Shown piece after piece: positions 20,714 through 61,684 of a stretch of DNA of 64,000 nt. The translations under genes were made by a program, and so were the position numbers. The notes under the pieces are model-generated. The model was not told where the DNA came from. It worked only from the letters and a program-made list of their open reading frames with translations, and did not search any database. Numbering within the stretch: position 1 is the stretch's first letter; each line of letters begins with the position of its first letter. The stretch is from an uncultured Roseibium sp. (GTDB lineage: Bacteria; Pseudomonadota; Alphaproteobacteria; Rhizobiales; Stappiaceae): positions 1-64,000 of the forward strand of contig NZ_CANMFD010000002.1 of NCBI RefSeq assembly GCF_947496995.1, in the 5' to 3' direction.

Positions 20714-22045
20714 ATGCGTCTTTCCAGATACTTTCTGCCCATCCTCAAGGAAACACCGAAAGAAGCGGAAATCGTTTCCCATCGGCTGATGCTGCGTGCC
20801 GGCATGATTCGCCAGCAATCTGCGGGGATCTATTCCTGGCTGCCGCTGGGACTGAAGGTGCTGCGCAAGATCGAGCGGATCGTGGAAGAAGAGCAGGCGC
20901 GGGCAGGGGCCATTCAGCTGCTTATGCCGACCATCCAGTCCGCCGACCTGTGGCGCGAGAGCGGCCGCTACGATGCCTATGGCAAGGAGATGCTGCGCAT
21001 CACCGACCGGCACGAGCGCGAGATGCTCTACGGTCCGACCAACGAAGAAATGATTACCGAGATCTTTCGCAGCTATGTGCGCTCCTACAAGGATCTGCCG
21101 CTCAACCTTTACCATATCCAGTGGAAGTTCCGTGATGAGGTCCGTCCGCGCTTCGGCATCATGAGGGGCAGGGAATTCCTGATGAAGGACGCCTATTCCT
21201 TCGATCTGGACAAGGAACGGGCGGTCGAGGCCTACAACCGCATGTTCGTTGCCTATCTGCGCACCTACAAGCGCATGGGCTTGACGGCGATCCCGATGCG
21301 TGCCGAGACCGGTCCCATCGGTGGCGATCTGAGCCACGAGTTTATCGTGCTCGCCGACACCGGTGAGAGCGAGGTTTACTGCCACGCTGACTATCTGGGC
21401 AAGGAGACGCCGGGCGAGGATGTCGATTTCAACGGTGACCTGACGCCCATCGTCAGTGACTGGACGTCGCTTTACGCCGCTACGGAGGACATCGTCGACA
21501 AGGCGGAGTTCGAGGCTTCAGTACCTGAAGACAAGCGCATCGTCGCGCGCGGTATCGAGGTCGGTCAGACATTTTACTTCGGCACCAAGTATTCCGAACC
21601 TCTGGGGGCGAAGGTCGCCACCTCGGACGGCACCGAGGTTGCGGTTCATATGGGCTCCTATGGCGTCGGCGTCTCCCGCCTTCTTGGCGCCTTGATCGAG
21701 GCCAATCATGATGAAAATGGAATCATCTGGCCGAAATCCGTGGCACCTTTCCATGTCGGTCTGGTCAACCTGAAGCCGGGAGACGATCTTACCGACAGTG
21801 TGTCGGAAGATCTTTACGGCAAGCTTGAGTCCGCGGGTATCGAGGTGCTCTACGACGACACGGATACGCGGGCGGGCGCGAAGTTCGCGACCATGGATCT
21901 CATCGGCTTGCCGTTCCAGGTTGTGGCGGGTCCGCGCGGGCTGAAAGACGGCCTTCTGGAGGTCAAGGACCGCGCAACTGGGGAAAAGGAAATGCTTTCC
22001 CCGGAAGCGACGCTGAACAAACTGACGGCGGCATTGACGGGTTAG
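20714..22045 (+). CDS. proS: Prolyl-tRNA synthetase, short alphaproteobacterial type
   Basis: A 443-aa class II aminoacyl-tRNA synthetase that charges tRNA-Pro. Motif 1, motif 2 ([20 protein letters not shown]) and the glycine-rich motif 3 region ([16 protein letters not shown]) are present, followed by the anticodon domain. The large INS editing insertion of E. coli ProRS is absent, as is usual in alphaproteobacteria. The ATG at 20714 gives the family length. An upstream frame extension to 20537 is not protein-like. Confidence 0.95.
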
Positions 22046-22144
22046 ATAACTGCGGTGATGCTCGGAGCGGGGATTCGGCCGCAGGCCGCCGCGAGCCGCC
22101 ACAAGTCATTGGGGCCGGTGGGGCATTGCTGAAGTGGATGGACG

Positions 22145-23449
22145 ATGACAGCGGTAGATACTGCGGACGTTGACGAGAGCCGGAAATCAGCTGAGCCGAC
22201 ACGTCCGTTTTCCGCCTACGAGTGGATGATCGCCGGCCGGTATCTGCGCTCGAGGCGGCGCGAGACCTTCATTTCCGTCATCGCCGGATTTTCCTTTGCC
22301 GGGATCATGCTGGGCGTGGCGACGCTGATCATCGTCATGGCGGTGATGAACGGCTTCCGCTCCGAGCTCCTGGGCAAGATTCTCGGCATCAACGGCCATA
22401 TGCTCGTGCAGCCGATAGATCTGCCGCTCACCGACTATGACGCGGTGGCGGCGCGACTGGAAGGCGTGCCTGATGTGGTCAGCGCCATTCCCTTCATCGA
22501 GGGCCAGGCGCTGGTCTCCGGGCCTGCAGGCAATCTGGGAGCCCTGGTGCGCGGTATTCACGAGGCGGACCTCCGCCGTGTGCCGCTGATCGCCAACAAC
22601 ATCCGTTCCGGCTCTCTTGACGGCTTCGACGAAGGCGAGGGGATCGCCATCGGCTCGCGCATGGCGCAGCAGCTCGGCGTGACCACGGGCGACAACATCA
22701 CCATCATTTCGCCGCGTGGCAGCGTCACGCCGATGGGGGTGACGCCAAGGCTGAAGGCCTATCCGGTGTCGGCCGTCTTCGAGATCGGCATGAGCGAATA
22801 TGACAGCACCTTCGTGTTCATGCCGCTGGAAGAGGCGCAGGCCTATTTCAACATGGACACCAAGGCGACCGGGATCGAGATCTATGTGGTCGATCCGGAC
22901 AATGTCGGCGTCATGGCCAAGGCCATCGAAGAAGCCGCCGAGCGTCCGACTTTCGTCACCGACTGGCGGCAGCGCAACGTGACGTTTTTCTCCGCGCTGG
23001 AGGTTGAGCGCAACGTGATGTTCATCATTCTGACGCTGATCGTGCTGGTGGCGGCGCTCAACATCATTTCCGGACTGATCATGCTGGTGAAGGACAAGGG
23101 CAGGGACATCGCCGTTCTGCGCACCATGGGGGCAACCCGCGGTTCGATCATGCGGATCTTCCTGATCACCGGCGCCAGCATCGGCTGTGTCGGCACCTTC
23201 GCGGGGTTCGTACTCGGTCTGGTTGTCTGCCTGAATATCGAGAGCATCCGCCAGGGTGTCTCGTGGCTGACGTCAACGCAGCTTTTCGACCCGACGCTCT
23301 ACTTCCTGTCCAGGCTGCCGGCGGAAATCGACAGCGGTGAAACGCTGACGGTGCTCCTGATGGCCCTGGTGCTGTCGCTGCTGGCGACGCTTTATCCCGC
23401 CTGGCGGGCCGCACGGCTCGATCCTGTTGAAGCGCTGCGGTATGAGTGA
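22145..23449 (+). CDS. lolC: Lipoprotein-releasing ABC transporter permease LolC/LolE
   Basis: A 434-aa inner-membrane permease that extracts lipoproteins for transfer to the LolA carrier. It has one N-terminal helix (~49-75), a large periplasmic MacB-like domain and three C-terminal helices (~295-320, 345-375, 398-420). The ending [18 protein letters not shown] is the usual FtsX/LolC signature. Only one permease gene is present here, so it probably acts as a LolC/E homodimer (LolF type). It overlaps or closely precedes lolD. Confidence 0.93.
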
Positions 23450-23459
23450 GGAAGCGCCG

Positions 23460-24176
23460 ATGAACATGACCGTCGATCCATGCCGGACATCTGGCCTCGC
23501 ACCGGCGGCTCTCGAGCTTGCCGGCATAGGGCGCAGTTTCGATGAGGGCGACCGCAAGCTTCACATCCTCAACGGTGCGAACCTGCGGATCGAGGCCGGG
23601 GAAATGGTGGCGCTGGTCGCGCCGTCCGGAACCGGCAAATCCACCCTGCTGCATATCGCCGGGCTGCTGGAGCGCCCCGACGAGGGGGATGTGTTTCTCG
23701 GACCGGTGAATTGTTCGGAGTTGTCCGACGACCAGCGCACAGCCATCCGCCGCAACGACATCGGCTTTGTCTACCAGTTCCATCATCTGCTGCCGGAATT
23801 TACCGCGCAGGAGAACATCATGATGCCGCAGATGATCCGCGGGCTTCCGAAAAAGGTCGCCGCCGAGCGGGCCGATGAACTGCTCAGCTACATGCGGCTT
23901 GGCGAGCGGGGAAAGCACCGTCCCTCGGAGCTTTCCGGTGGTGAGCAGCAGCGGGTGGCGGTTGCCCGTGCGGTGGCCAATGCGCCGCGCATCCTGCTGC
24001 TGGACGAACCGACGGGCAATCTCGATCCGACGACGGCCAAATATGTCTTCGATGCCCTGGCGGCGCTTGTGCGGGCCTCCGGCGTCGCGACGCTGTTCGC
24101 CACACATAATCTGGAACTCGCCGCGCAGATGGATCGCTCGATCACCCTGAAGGACGGGCTGGTACAGCCGCTTTAG
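23460..24176 (+). CDS. lolD: Lipoprotein-releasing ABC transporter ATPase LolD
   Basis: A 238-aa ABC ATPase that powers lipoprotein release. Walker A is APSGTGKST (54-62), followed by [14 protein letters not shown] and Walker [15 protein letters not shown] chose ATG 23460 because AGGAAG sits 5 bases upstream. An in-frame ATG at 23442 overlapping the lolC stop is possible and would add six residues. Spacing with lolC shows one operon. Confidence 0.93.
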
Positions 24177-24188
24177 GTCTGCTGCCAG

Positions 24189-24238
24189 TTGCCGGACCGG
24201 ATAATCCGGATTGAGAAACGGCAAGGCCTGTTTTTTTT
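24189..24238 (+). terminator. Putative terminator after lolD
   Basis: TTGCCG (24189-24194) pairs with CGGCAA (24219-24224), with the inner palindrome CCGGATAATCCGG. Eight T's follow at 24231-24238 after a 6-base spacer. The position right behind lolD fits an operon end. The spacer makes it less than ideal. Confidence 0.5.
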
Positions 24239-24409
24239 AACTCCCCCTGCCTACAAGCGCCGGATCGTGCCGCGTTCAATCGAGAACGAGATGCACGACA
24301 TGACACCGGACAAAACTTTCTTGCACGCCTCGACAAGAGCGGAACAAAGCGAAAACCCGTGATTTTCAGATAATTTGATCCTCTTGATGGCAACAGGAAC
24401 AAAAAGGGC

Positions 24410-24438
24410 TTGCAAAGAGAACAAACATTGAACATACT
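24410..24438 (+). promoter_or_regulatory. SOS promoter: LexA box between -35 and -10
   Basis: The sequence shows TTGCAA (24410-24415), a 17-base spacer and CATACT (24433-24438). Inside lies GAAC-N7-GAAC (24419-24433), the exact direct-repeat LexA box of alphaproteobacteria. LexA bound here would block RNA polymerase. The lexA promoter at 61633-61661 has the same layout. Confidence 0.85.
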
Positions 24439-24472
24439 CTCTTCAAGCCATAAGCCAAGGTTGGAGGGTGTG

Positions 24473-24571
24473 ATGATTTATATCGCTCGTGATTTTGCCG
24501 CATTCGGTTCCCTGATGTGTTTCTGCACGACGCTTGCTGTCTGGGGCGACGTGCTGTTTTCCGTCGGCTGA
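24473..24571 (+). CDS. SOS-controlled 32-aa membrane peptide, possible division inhibitor
   Basis: A 32-aa peptide starting MIYIARDF. It has one continuous hydrophobic stretch (about residues 8-30, FAAFGSLMCFCTTLAVWGDV). GGAGGG sits 4 bases before the ATG. The gene lies 35 bases after a -10 element whose promoter contains a perfect LexA box, so expression should rise on DNA damage. Size, topology and control resemble SidA of Caulobacter, a 29-aa SOS-induced membrane peptide that blocks division. I see no clear sequence identity to it, so that function is an inference. It lies upstream of dnaE but is separated by ~245 bases. Confidence 0.78.
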   Translation: MIYIARDFAAFGSLMCFCTTLAVWGDVLFSVG

Positions 24572-24816
24572 GAAATTCGTCTTCTGAGGGAAGATCCCAT
24601 TCCGGTGCGCCGGGAAGTGTTTCCGGCGTGCCTTGCTCTCGCGATAAGAAATTTGCTGCCGTGTCCGTGTGTTGTTTTTGTGTGCGCCGTCTTTCGGTGT
24701 GCCGGGCGGGACGATGTGGCAAAGAACAGCGGTAACAACCGCTTTGACGGCTCGACATATCTTTTCTGAAGCGCTTCACTTGAAAGCTGATTCCGGAAGA
24801 TGCGAGAAGCGCCGTC
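24572..24816. other. Gap between the SOS peptide gene and dnaE
   Basis: A hairpin with arms CGCCGGGAA and TTTCCGGCG lies near 24610-24630 without a T-run. AGCGG/CCGCT forms a small hairpin at ~24729-24744. I see no gene and no convincing dnaE promoter. Transcription from the SOS promoter could continue into dnaE unless stopped here. Confidence 0.3.
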
Positions 24817-27800
24817 ATGACTGATTCCCACTCCTCTGCCATCGTGCCTTCCGGCGCTGCTGGACATGCAGGACAGGCGGGCGCGGGGCCGGGGTATGTT
24901 CACCTCAGGGTCCACTCCGCGCTGTCTCTCCTGGAAGGCGCGCTGCCGATCAAGAAGCTGCTGGATCTGGCCAAGGCCGACGGCCAGCCGGCGCTGGCGA
25001 TTGCCGACACCAACAATCTGTTCGGAGCGCAGGAGTTTTCCGGCAAGGCCTGGGGAGCCGGCATCCAGCCGATCACCGCCTGCCAGCTGTCCGTGTTCTT
25101 CGACGATGGACTGGAGAGCGGACGGCGGGGTGAGCCTGCGCTGGCCGATGTGGTTCTGATCGCCATGAGCGAACGCGGCTACGGCAACCTGATGGAGCTG
25201 TCGTCACGCGCCTTCCTGGATACGGAAACAGGGCTTCGGCCGCATGTATCGCTCGACTATCTGCTGTCCAGATCCGACGACGTGATTGTTTTGACCGGCG
25301 GGGCCCTCGGGCCTGTCGGTGCGGCGCTGCTTGCCGGACGCAAGGATCTGGCCAGGGAACGGCTGCAGAAGCTGGCAACGGGCTTTGCCGGGCGCTGTTA
25401 CGTCGAGATCCAGCGCCACGGCATGGAGGTGGAGCGCAAGACCGAGGAGGCTTTCCTTGCGCTAGCCTACGACATGGGCCTGCCGTTGGTCGCAACCAAC
25501 GAGGCGTTTTTCCCCAAGCGCGAGGATTATGAGGCGCATGACGCCCTGATCTGCATTTCCGAAAGCCGGGTGCTGATCGAGGACGATCGCCGCCGCTTGA
25601 CCCCGGAGCATTATTTCAAGAGCCGGGCGGAAATGTGCGCGCTCTTTGCCGATCTGCCCGAGGCGCTGGCTTCCACGGTGGAAATCGCCAAGCGTTGTCA
25701 TTTCCGCCCGTTGCGCCGTGACCCCATTCTGCCGCGCTTCACCAGCGCCGATGTGGACGGGGAGGAAGCCGAGCAGGCGGAAACCGAGGAGCTGAAACGC
25801 CAGGCGCGCGAGGGGCTGCGGGCGCGCCTCGATGCCCACGGCCTTGCGCCGGGGCTTGAGGAAAAGGATTACTGGGACCGGCTCGACTATGAGACCGGTG
25901 TCATCGAACGGATGAAATTTCCCGGCTACTTCCTGATCGTTGCCGACTTCATCAAATGGGCCAAGGGGCAGGATATTCCCGTCGGGCCGGGCCGCGGCTC
26001 CGGGGCGGGCTCGCTGGTGGCGTGGGCACTGACCATTACCGACCTCGACCCGATGCGGTTCTCCCTGCTGTTCGAACGTTTCCTCAATCCGGAACGTGTG
26101 TCGATGCCGGATTTCGACATCGACTTCTGCCAGAGCCGGCGTGAAGAGGTGATCCGCTACGTTCAGGAAAAATACGGCCGCCAGCAAGTGGCGCAGATCA
26201 TTACCTTCGGGTCGTTGCAGGCGCGTGCCGTGCTGCGCGATGTCGGCCGGGTGCTGCAGATGCCCTACGGCCAGGTTGACCGGCTGTGCAAGCTGGTGCC
26301 GGCGAACCCGGCCAATCCGGTGACGCTCGCCCAGGCCATCGCCGATGAGCCGCGCCTGCGCGAGGCGGCCAAGGACGAGGAGAATGTCGAGCGACTGCTC
26401 GGCATGGCGCAGAAGCTGGAAGGGCTTTACCGGCACGCCTCCACCCACGCGGCAGGCGTGGTGATCGGTGACCGGCCGCTGGAACAGCTCGTGCCGCTCT
26501 ACCGCGATCCGCGCTCGGACATGCCGGTGGCGCAGTTCAACATGAAGATGGTCGAGGATGCCGGGCTGGTGAAGTTCGACTTTCTTGGCCTGAAGACGCT
26601 GACCGTCATCGACACCGCCGTGAAGCTGATCGAGCGGCGTGGAATTACGATCGATGTCGCCGGGCTGCCGATCGACGATGAACAGACCTACCAGATGCTG
26701 GCGCGGGGCGAGACCTTCGGCGTGTTCCAGCTGGAAAGTCAGGGCATGCGCCGGGCCATCGCTGGCATGAAGCCGGACCGGTTCGAGGACATCATCGCTT
26801 TGGTGGCACTCTACCGGCCGGGACCGATGGAGAACATTCCGGTCTATAACGCCGTCAAGCACGGCGAACAGGAGCCGGACTGTCTGCATCCGCTGCTGGA
26901 ACCCATCCTGATGGAGACGAACGGCATCATCGTCTACCAGGAACAGGTGATGCAGATCGCCCAGGTGCTGTCGGGCTATTCGCTCGGCGAAGCCGATCTT
27001 CTGCGCCGTGCGATGGGCAAGAAGATTGCCGCGGAGATGGAAGTGCAGCGGGCCCGCTTCGTGGATGGGGCGGTTGCACAGGGTGTCAACAAGACCCAGG
27101 CCGGAACGATCTTCGACCTTGTGGCGAAATTCGCCAACTACGGCTTCAACAAGTCGCACGCGGCTGCCTATGCGCTGGTGTCCTATCATACGGCCTGGCT
27201 GAAGGCGAACTACCCGGTCGAATTCATGGCCGCATCGATGACGCTCGATATGGGCAACACCGACAAGTTGGGAGACTTCCGCCAGGAAGCCCGGCGCATG
27301 CGAATCGAGATCGAGCAGCCGTCGATCAACCGCGGCCAGGTGTATTTCGACGTGGCCGACGGCAAGATCCTTTACGCCCTTGGGGCGATCAAGGGAGCGG
27401 GAGAACAGGCGGTCGAACACATTGTCGAGGTGAGGGGAGACACGCCCTTCAAGAGCCTCGGTGATTTTGCCCGCCGGATCTCGCCGAAGATGCTCAACAA
27501 GCGGACGCTGGAAAATCTCGTTGCCGCCGGAGCTTTCGACGAACTTGAGCCCAACCGGGCGCGGGTCTTTGAAGGTCTCGATCGGGTCATGGGTCTGGCG
27601 CAGCGCACGGAGGAGAACCGCACGCTTGGCCAGGACGAGCTTTTCGGCGGCAGCGACAGCGAAGAGCCGCTGCAACTGGACGAAGTTCAGCCCTGGGCGA
27701 CGGAGGAAAAGCTGCAGCGAGAGCATTCCGCCATCGGTTTTTATCTCTCCGCCCATCCGATCGACGAATACGCCGGTATCCTCGACAAGATGCGTGTCCA

Positions 27801-28320
27801 GCCCTGGACGCAGTTTGCCGAGGCGGTGAAGAAGGGTGCTTCCGCCGGGCGTCTGGCCGGCACGGTGATTTCCATGCAGGAGCGCAAGACCAAGACCGGC
27901 ACGCGCATGGGCATTGCCCGGCTCTCCGACGCCACCGGCCAGTATGAGGCGCTGCTGTTCCGAGAAAAGCTGGAGCAGTTCCGTGAATCGCTTCAGACCG
28001 GCCGATCCGTCGTGATTCTGGTCGGCGCCGATATGCGCGATGACGAGCCTTCGCTACGGATCGAGCAGGTGGACCCGATCGACAAGGTCGCCGCCCGTCT
28101 TCAGAAGAGCATGCGCGTCTTCGTCCGCGACGAACGCCCCATCCAGAGCCTTGCCAAACATCTCACGATGCGCGGCGAGGGCGATGTGACGGTCATCGTT
28201 CTTCTGGAAAACGGTGCGCGCGAGGTGGAAGTCAAGCTGCCGGGCCGCTTCCGCCTGTCACCCGAGATCGCCGGAGCACTGAAGGCGGTGCCGGGCGTGA
28301 CGGATGTGCAGGTGGCGTAA
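24817..28320 (+). CDS. dnaE: DNA polymerase III alpha subunit
   Basis: The 1167-aa replicative polymerase (DnaE1 type). An N-terminal PHP domain starts at VHLRVHSALSLLEGAL. The catalytic loop MPDFDIDFCQSRREEVI is at about residues 430-447, with the two conserved Asp of PDFDIDF. A helix-hairpin-helix and an OB-fold (LAGTVISMQERKTKTGTRM) follow. The length and complete PHP region fit the chromosomal replicase rather than the SOS-induced DnaE2. It is followed after 36 bases by a convergent gene. Confidence 0.95.
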   Translation: MTDSHSSAIVPSGAAGHAGQAGAGPGYVHLRVHSALSLLEGALPIKKLLDLAKADGQPALAIADTNNLFGAQEFSGKAWGAGIQPITACQLSVFFDDGLESGRRGEPALADVVLIAMSERGYGNLMELSSRAFLDTETGLRPHVSLDYLLSRSDDVIVLTGGALGPVGAALLAGRKDLARERLQKLATGFAGRCYVEIQRHGMEVERKTEEAFLALAYDMGLPLVATNEAFFPKREDYEAHDALICISESRVLIEDDRRRLTPEHYFKSRAEMCALFADLPEALASTVEIAKRCHFRPLRRDPILPRFTSADVDGEEAEQAETEELKRQAREGLRARLDAHGLAPGLEEKDYWDRLDYETGVIERMKFPGYFLIVADFIKWAKGQDIPVGPGRGSGAGSLVAWALTITDLDPMRFSLLFERFLNPERVSMPDFDIDFCQSRREEVIRYVQEKYGRQQVAQIITFGSLQARAVLRDVGRVLQMPYGQVDRLCKLVPANPANPVTLAQAIADEPRLREAAKDEENVERLLGMAQKLEGLYRHASTHAAGVVIGDRPLEQLVPLYRDPRSDMPVAQFNMKMVEDAGLVKFDFLGLKTLTVIDTAVKLIERRGITIDVAGLPIDDEQTYQMLARGETFGVFQLESQGMRRAIAGMKPDRFEDIIALVALYRPGPMENIPVYNAVKHGEQEPDCLHPLLEPILMETNGIIVYQEQVMQIAQVLSGYSLGEADLLRRAMGKKIAAEMEVQRARFVDGAVAQGVNKTQAGTIFDLVAKFANYGFNKSHAAAYALVSYHTAWLKANYPVEFMAASMTLDMGNTDKLGDFRQEARRMRIEIEQPSINRGQVYFDVADGKILYALGAIKGAGEQAVEHIVEVRGDTPFKSLGDFARRISPKMLNKRTLENLVAAGAFDELEPNRARVFEGLDRVMGLAQRTEENRTLGQDELFGGSDSEEPLQLDEVQPWATEEKLQREHSAIGFYLSAHPIDEYAGILDKMRVQPWTQFAEAVKKGASAGRLAGTVISMQERKTKTGTRMGIARLSDATGQYEALLFREKLEQFRESLQTGRSVVILVGADMRDDEPSLRIEQVDPIDKVAARLQKSMRVFVRDERPIQSLAKHLTMRGEGDVTVIVLLENGAREVEVKLPGRFRLSPEIAGALKAVPGVTDVQVA

Positions 28321-60765: not shown

Positions 60766-60876
60766 GAGCATGTCGCGTTGAATTGAATTCAAGAAATCGC
60801 CGGAATGCATTTGCAATGCAAACGCTGCCTCGAGCGCCTTCCTGAAACCATGAATCCGCTTAAACGCGACATATTC
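60766..60876 (-). repeat. Dispersed ~110-bp intergenic repeat, copy B
   Basis: Its reverse complement aligns without gaps with copy A (20047-20148), about 79 of 102 bases identical. Its ends form a better inverted repeat (ATGTCGCGTT at one end, AACGCGACAT at the other). As in copy A, it starts immediately at the TAG stop of the neighbouring gene (lexA) and lies in the same orientation relative to that gene. Confidence 0.75.
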
Positions 60877-61586
60877 TAATACTGGCGGAACAAGGCGACC
60901 AGACGGCCCTGAACACGGACGCGGCCCGGCCCGAAAATACGGGTTTCATAGGCTGGGTTCGCAGCTTCGAGTGCAATCGAGGCGCCTTTCTTGCGAAGCC
61001 GTTTCAGGGTGGCTTCCTCATCGTCGACCAGAGCAACGACGATATCACCGCTGTCGGCGCTCTCCGTGCGGCGAATCAGAACCGTATCGCCGTCCAGAAT
61101 ACCGGCCTCGATCATGGAATCGCCGCGCACTTCCAGGGCGTAATGCTCGCCCTTGCCAAGAAGATCCTGCGGAACGGTGATGGAATGGCTGTGGGTCTGG
61201 ATGGCTTCGATGGGAACACCGGCTGCGATGCGGCCCATCACCGGGATCTCCACACTGGTTCCGGCAGCCTGGGCAACCGGCATGGCGGCTTCCGGCTTGC
61301 CGAGGGATCCTTCGATGACTTCCGGAGAAAAGCTGCCGCGTGGCCGTAGCGTGCCGAGACCCGGAGCGATGGAGTCTGGCAGGCGGACCACTTCCATTGC
61401 ACGGGCCCGGTTGGGCAGCCTGCGAATGAAGCCGCGCTCTTCAAGAGCCGTGATCAACCGGTGGATTCCGGATTTGGAACGCAGGTCCAACGCATCTTTC
61501 ATTTCATCGAACGACGGCGGGACACCTGTTTCCTTTAGTCTTTCGTGAATGAACATGAGCAGTTCATACTGCTTGCGCGTCAACAT
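60876..61586 (-). CDS. lexA: LexA repressor
   Basis: A 236-aa SOS repressor. The winged-helix domain is [17 protein letters not shown] to about residue 70. The self-cleavage Ala-Gly site lies in GRIAAGVP, the nucleophile Ser in [13 protein letters not shown], and the Lys in [12 protein letters not shown] chose ATG 61586, behind GGGGAAGCACT. A frame open to 61622 would extend into the promoter. It is autoregulated through two boxes upstream. Confidence 0.97.
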
Positions 61587-61632: not shown

Positions 61633-61661
61633 TGCTACCTGTTCTCATTGTGTTCCGCAAG
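61633..61661 (-). promoter_or_regulatory. lexA promoter
   Basis: On the minus strand: TTGCGG (61656-61661), 17 bases, TAGCAT (61633-61638). LexA box 1 lies in the spacer. This geometry equals that of the SOS peptide promoter at 24410-24438. Confidence 0.7.
61642..61656 (-). promoter_or_regulatory. LexA box 1 at lexA
   Basis: GTTC-N7-GTTC on the plus strand (GAAC-N7-GAAC on the lexA strand), a perfect alphaproteobacterial SOS box. Confidence 0.88.
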
Positions 61662-61669
61662 GGTAAATG

Positions 61670-61684
61670 TTCTCTTACTGTTCC
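61670..61684 (-). promoter_or_regulatory. LexA box 2 at lexA
   Basis: A second perfect GTTC-N7-GTTC, 28 bases from box 1 (start to start), upstream of the -35. Two boxes suggest tight or graded autorepression. Confidence 0.82.

Follow-up and report, generated by a model that had tools for sequence, protein, structure and literature searches.

A conserved gene for a predicted 32-aa membrane peptide ahead of dnaE in Roseibium, a likely relative of the Caulobacter SOS division inhibitor SidA

To our knowledge, SulA is absent from Alphaproteobacteria, and how division is stopped after DNA damage outside Caulobacter is unclear. In Caulobacter, SidA is a 29-aa SOS-induced inner-membrane division inhibitor that binds FtsW (PMC4211646), and cells lacking lexA no longer filament once sidA is deleted as well (PMC12700426). 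An AlphaFold 3 model of low confidence places SidA on TM7 of FtsW (PMC13396833). No statement of SidA outside Caulobacter, or of sidA relatives before dnaE, was found in the literature covered, a weak absence, since that literature does not extend to the first description of SidA or to two papers on the LexA regulon.

The DNA analyzed is a 64,000-nt stretch from an uncultured Roseibium sp., hereafter the window. A short open reading frame (ORF) between lolD and dnaE, 245 nt ahead of dnaE, is the subject of this study, and the features of the locus are as follows.

23427..24176, + strand: LolD-like ABC transporter ATPase, the upstream neighbour (best NCBIfam match TIGR02211, under its cut-off)
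24397..24400, + strand: extra GAAC half-site (sequence), possibly part of an extended LexA operator
24410..24415, + strand: putative -35 hexamer TTGCAA (sequence, within a conserved block)
24419..24433, + strand: LexA-type box GAACAAACATTGAAC, GAAC-N7-GAAC (sequence and conservation), a presumptive LexA-binding site
24433..24438, + strand: putative -10 hexamer CATACT (sequence), whose first base is also the final base of the box
24463..24468, + strand: ribosome-binding site GGAGGG (sequence), 4 nt ahead of the ATG
24473..24571, + strand: sidA-like gene, ATG at 24473, 32 codons, TGA ending at 24571
24817..28320, + strand: dnaE, replicative DNA polymerase III alpha subunit (NF004226)

The GGAGGG motif 4 bases before the ATG and the 32-codon gene had been pointed out in an earlier sequence-only reading, and both were confirmed in the sequence. 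That reading had also described the encoded peptide, MIYIARDFAAFGSLMCFCTTLAVWGDVLFSVG, as almost entirely one membrane helix, and hydropathy analysis agrees with such a prediction, giving a single hydrophobic segment with a best 17-residue Kyte-Doolittle mean of 1.71 (F8-W24) and charges only near the ends of that segment. Comparison of the peptide with Pfam and NCBIfam returned no family at E<=10. A scan of 22000-27000 against Rfam, which served also as the search for an antisense antitoxin, likewise gave no match, undescribed antisense RNAs falling outside such a scan.

TisB is an SOS-controlled peptide of like size class. DinQ, another SOS peptide, has a single transmembrane segment (PMC3567139). 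The Roseibium peptide could be imagined as an SOS-induced product of this TisB/DinQ type, depolarising the membrane and slowing growth instead of blocking FtsW. The size class and the apparent SOS control are alike; against this, charges occur only towards the two ends of the hydrophobic stretch, and the position and profile match SidA instead, and we regard a depolarising role as quite unlikely.

Searching with the single Roseibium peptide gave a match in 37/37 same-genus genomes and in 80/87 family genomes at E<=1. Seven family genomes were missed by this search; four of them (G097, G098, G102 and G104) match the peptide profile with E of about 2.5e-8, and the other three (G086, G087 and G108) lie outside the loci read. 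One dnaE-linked locus was taken per matching genome, giving a family set of 80 loci, own genome included. The sequence-only reading had proposed to look for the peptide upstream of dnaE in relatives, and there it was found, with dnaE within 700 nt downstream of the ORF in 80/80 family loci and 45/45 genus loci (own included). Second peptide matches, e.g., those in G013 and G081 (L080 and L081), are not dnaE-linked. Peptide length ranges from 31 to 38 aa across the 80 family loci. The box upstream of the ORF is exact in 72/80 family and 38/45 genus loci, and has at most one mismatch in all 80 and all 45, respectively. Loss of the frame in relatives together with drift of the box had been named beforehand as evidence against the proposed SOS inhibitor; the frame is kept, and the box stays within the one mismatch just given throughout the genus.

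For the 990 pairs formed by the 45 genus loci, pN/pS in the frame of the peptide is 0.23, and the two alternative frames give 1.51 and 2.23, values that are approximate with synonymous sites near saturation (median pS 0.68). Conservation at codon positions 1, 2 and 3 in the same loci is 0.85, 0.94 and 0.60. By these sequence measures, the ORF at 24473-24571 is a real gene. A chance ORF was ruled out by the frame test (pN/pS and codon-position conservation). Among 70 distinct aligned peptides, an R or K stands ahead of the hydrophobic segment in 68, with a D or E next to it (position 7) in 70/70; W24, near the end of the segment, is invariant (70/70), and two residues past it there is D/E in 65/70 peptides and Q or N in the other five.

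A search of 5.8 billion predicted proteins, restricted to candidates with shared exact words, yielded 11 relatives (E<=0.01), among which is a hypothetical protein of 32 aa from Labrenzia sp. THAF82. With so few predicted-protein relatives, many copies of the peptide gene are probably unannotated, in line with the earlier suggestion that it is small enough for gene finders to miss. Close peptide alignments cover 33 named loci, of which 29 are named Roseibium, Labrenzia or Pannonibacter and four Stappia sp., Rhodobacterales, Rhodobacteraceae and Alphaproteobacteria bacterium. Two database relatives (P0004 and P0011) are called diacylglycerol kinase by their source, an evident misnaming of a 32-45 aa protein.

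The fixed position also raises the reading that the ORF is a leader ORF (uORF) of dnaE, translated only for dnaE tuning, with a product inert in trans. A peptide ORF does precede dnaE in nearly all loci read, and in Sinorhizobium meliloti sORF25 lies in the dnaE1 5'-UTR, in a set of sORFs of which some are described as possible uORFs (PMC10117765). After the ORF, however, conservation drops to 0.15-0.43 over 100-240 nt before returning to about 0.6 nearer dnaE, and the intervening stretch differs in length among loci. The uORF reading fits less well because the amino acids are under selection and the stretch to dnaE is unconserved; moreover, genomes of family f44 hold copies of a relative at places apart from dnaE, and Caulobacter SidA works in trans (PMC4211646, PMC12700426). 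A purely cis-acting role is thus improbable, though both roles may be partly true, with the peptide gene possibly leading a dnaE unit that is SOS-inducible. As a separate observation, conservation climbs again at 24713-24773, about 45-105 nt ahead of dnaE, possibly marking a promoter of dnaE itself, and a terminator-like site on the opposite strand also lies within 24713-24773.

Upstream of the gene, the block from -80 to -40 is conserved at 0.87-0.88 across the 45 genus loci. The -35/-10 pair with 17-base spacing described in the sequence-only reading was confirmed as TTGCAA-17-CATACT. The perfect GAAC-N7-GAAC box, a direct repeat, is also present as described, except that it is not wholly inside the spacer, its last base overlapping the -10 hexamer. 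Taken by itself, the box is within chance expectation (four window matches against 2.27 expected; 21/100 shuffles reach four), and a consensus scan of 24100-24900 detected no sigma-70-type promoter at its threshold. The significance of the box and ORF therefore comes from conservation, not from the box alone. The extra GAAC half-site at 24397-24400, which may extend the operator, precedes the box by 22 nt (two steps of 11 nt) and lies inside the -80 to -40 block. This third half-site was seen again in most of the Roseibium loci printed.

The presumed repressor is encoded in the same window.

60876..61586, - strand: lexA, presumed repressor (TIGR00498)
61641..61655, - strand: LexA-type box in the lexA promoter (sequence match)
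61669..61683, - strand: second LexA-type box of lexA (sequence match), upstream of the first

The lexA promoter reads TTGCGG-17-TAGCAT. The two promoters had been said to have the same operator geometry, which holds for the 17-nt spacing and fails for the box offset and number: the box of lexA begins at the last base of its -35 hexamer, that of the peptide gene begins 3 bases past its -35 hexamer, and the second box belongs to lexA. Elsewhere in the same genome, a second DnaE-type polymerase domain (C1:551274-552035) is preceded, at a distance of about 5.6 kb, by GAACAAAATAGGAAC at C1:557665, an arrangement that might be as expected for an SOS mutagenesis operon.

To follow the gene through the order Hyphomicrobiales, a profile of 31 peptides was used, which matched 255/397 genomes of the order at E<=0.5, the weak matches among these being untrustworthy taken alone. 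Sixty-five matching loci were read, 14 of which repeat family-set genomes and one of which (L132) was a deliberately chosen second match. In 62 of the 65, spanning 20 families, dnaE lies downstream; it was not seen downstream in L120, L130 and L132. An exact box stands 39 to 101 nt ahead of the start codon in 42 of the 62 dnaE-linked loci and in 19/20 families; family f11 has no exact box within the 110 nt searched, and its start codon is unclear. Fourteen of the 20 dnaE-linked loci without an exact box within reach belong to family f44, where the peptide is 27-31 aa long. The promoters of the f44 dnaE loci L100, L104, L111 and L250, all four of those printed with upstream DNA, retain GAACAAAAC, with ATAC and not GAAC as the second half-site, which would reflect either changed LexA specificity or a different control there.

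Family f44 also holds copies away from dnaE. Second copies of the peptide (MIIRDILALGSL...) were seen in L132, L251 and L252 (G349, G414 and G168), placed before an ORF and an SSB-like gene (named by eye), and no GAAC-N7-GAAC box occurs near them in the 130 bases printed. The copies L253 and L254 (G333 and G256) lie amid recombination-module-like genes of phage or plasmid type (Erf-like, by eye), and these surroundings suggest that mobile elements carry such peptides. A search of phage and plasmid collections with 26 aa of the f44 relative as query gave no match at E<=10.

A class-wide profile sweep gave weak matches in 45/385 genomes at E<=0.1. Most were discarded: among L193-L216 (24 loci), dnaE adjoins only L193, L194 and L206, with L189-L192 outside this adjacency check. 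Retained were G466, G472 and G605, besides two genomes from within the order, the own one and G121. As profile search loses short peptides, dnaE upstream regions were also read directly at 78 loci, comprising the best-scoring 30 of 84 matching genomes in a class-wide draw (own included), 30/30 chosen genomes of the order without a clear profile match, and 18 further genomes bearing the holdfast protein HfaB (19 searched, one already present). An exact box was found within 500 nt of dnaE in 31/78 loci and was lacking in 47/78. A short hydrophobic ORF (24-48 aa) starts 25-75 nt past the box in 28 of the 31 exact-box loci, as against 75/1550 with shuffled downstream DNA, and none after the 32 boxes in 30 other loci of the own genome (245 genome sites). 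In the three misses (L291, L303 and L305), the peptide is present beyond the limits of length, distance or hydropathy, and in three of the 47 loci (L269, L273 and L294) an ORF of this kind comes after a box with one mismatch. Families of other orders with divergent versions are f55, f56, f61, f93, f109, f115, f133 and f172. Judged from sequence matches, the gene is widespread, in other orders too, yet not universal.

Among these families, f115 provides the link to Caulobacter. HfaB, positive in the Caulobacter vibrioides control, was found in 23/372 genomes drawn; these represent nine families, of which f115 scored best. Together with the 29-aa peptide length and a nucleoside-hydrolase neighbour, this suggests that f115 is Caulobacteraceae, an assignment that draws in part on the 29-aa length itself and on a marker shared by nine families. 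With the 29-aa peptide of L304 as query, 118/149 f115 genomes gave a match at E<=0.5. In the best-scoring 30 of these 118 loci, the ORF before dnaE is exactly 29 aa long in 30/30, and an exact box lies within 150 nt in 22/30 and is missing in 8/30; in further f115 loci, L303 and L305, the peptide has 29 and 31 aa. On the other side, a nucleoside hydrolase (PF01156) is found in 3/5 loci of the Caulobacter-like genus g436 (L335, E = 6.9e-77; L313, 1.3e-76; L315, 1.8e-78). An RTX-repeat ORF takes its place in L331, and the neighbouring ORF tested in L334 matched no Pfam family. In the published numbering, CCNA_02004 denotes sidA (PMC10769358) and CCNA_02005 an inosine-uridine nucleoside hydrolase (PMC3667746); for another Caulobacter strain, dnaE is numbered CC1926 (PMC1839093). 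The passages with these numbers make no mention of sidA adjoining dnaE, but the numbers and the hydrolase neighbour in g436 indicate that it probably does so in C. crescentus. The proposed identification of the 29-mers as SidA rests on length, position, box and neighbour.

Alignment of the 29-mers with the Hyphomicrobiales set by hhalign gave 18 columns with a probability of 88.5, an E-value of 2.8e-6 and a score of 25.0, and revealed a common alignable core, R[DE]xxAxxSxxxF; the C-terminal half (W24 and D26 in Roseibium) differs in the f115 29-mers. A SOS micropeptide that occupies the place of SidA in Hyphomicrobiales and has another divisome or membrane target there, its likeness being convergence of short hydrophobic helices, could account for a C-terminal W-x-D/E signature that is not that of the 29-mers and for an alignment of only 18 columns. 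It accounts poorly for the controls, in which the best of 200 same-composition column shuffles (first column fixed) scored 15.7 and the reversed profile 8.7, nor does it explain why position and box are common to both groups, and we hold it to be unlikely. Common ancestry of the Roseibium-type peptides with the f115 29-mers is highly probable. The earlier suggestion of a functional counterpart of SidA is taken further by these data: given the same position, LexA-type box, size class, core and, in those three g436 loci, nucleoside-hydrolase neighbour, the ORF is likely a SidA orthologue and, by analogy, a SidA-type SOS division inhibitor.

For such an orthologue, a mechanism modelled on SidA can be proposed. 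LexA bound to the GAAC-N7-GAAC box would block the promoter, and DNA damage, acting through RecA and LexA cleavage, would free it. The 32-aa peptide would then be made and inserted into the membrane as one helix. By analogy with SidA, it would bind the septal synthase complex (FtsW/FtsI/FtsN), presumably through FtsW, and keep the complex inactive, and division in Roseibium would be arrested, with septation delayed until repair is complete and LexA is back.

More broadly, we consider it an even chance that SidA is an old alphaproteobacterial SOS checkpoint that has been kept as the leading gene of the dnaE transcription unit, and not a Caulobacter peculiarity. Damage would then call up a septation brake and the replicative polymerase together, translated dnaE1 'uORFs' such as that of S. 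meliloti would be the same brake, and in some lineages further copies would have arisen beside ssb and within mobile-DNA recombination modules. The gene is conserved, has a fixed position ahead of dnaE and is probably often unannotated, which makes the proposal directly testable in many species. It also offers an alternative reading of the dnaE1 'uORF' detected by Ribo-seq, and the deep alignment is available for mapping how so small a helix could stop FtsW.

Among known systems, the closest is SidA of C. crescentus, with which the Roseibium gene shares a tiny, predicted membrane peptide and apparent LexA-type control and, if the f115 29-mers are SidA, the place directly before dnaE and the R[DE]xxAxxSxxxF core. 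The two differ in length (29 aa in SidA, 32 aa in Roseibium), in the Roseibium-type C-terminal half, where the invariant W is in most cases followed by D/E at the second residue after it, and in the distance to dnaE, which is 245 nt in Roseibium and 46 nt in L304. Sinorhizobium meliloti and Roseibium belong to the same order. The S. meliloti sORF25 is a translated short ORF before dnaE1, supported by Ribo-seq, for which the authors mention a possible uORF role (PMC10117765); the main text of that paper was found to make no mention of LexA or of an SOS response. The sORF is likened to the Roseibium gene by position, and may be the Sinorhizobium version of the Roseibium-type peptide. Caulobacter DidA is likewise a small damage-induced membrane division inhibitor, but has 71 aa, is SOS-independent and binds FtsN (PMC4211646). 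YneA, SosA and ChiZ are damage-induced membrane division inhibitors for which FtsW is a predicted or shown target (PMC13396833), but they come from Bacillus, Staphylococcus and Mycobacterium. Set beside these systems, the Roseibium peptide and its relatives would be a new member, and a large extension, of the known SidA kind.
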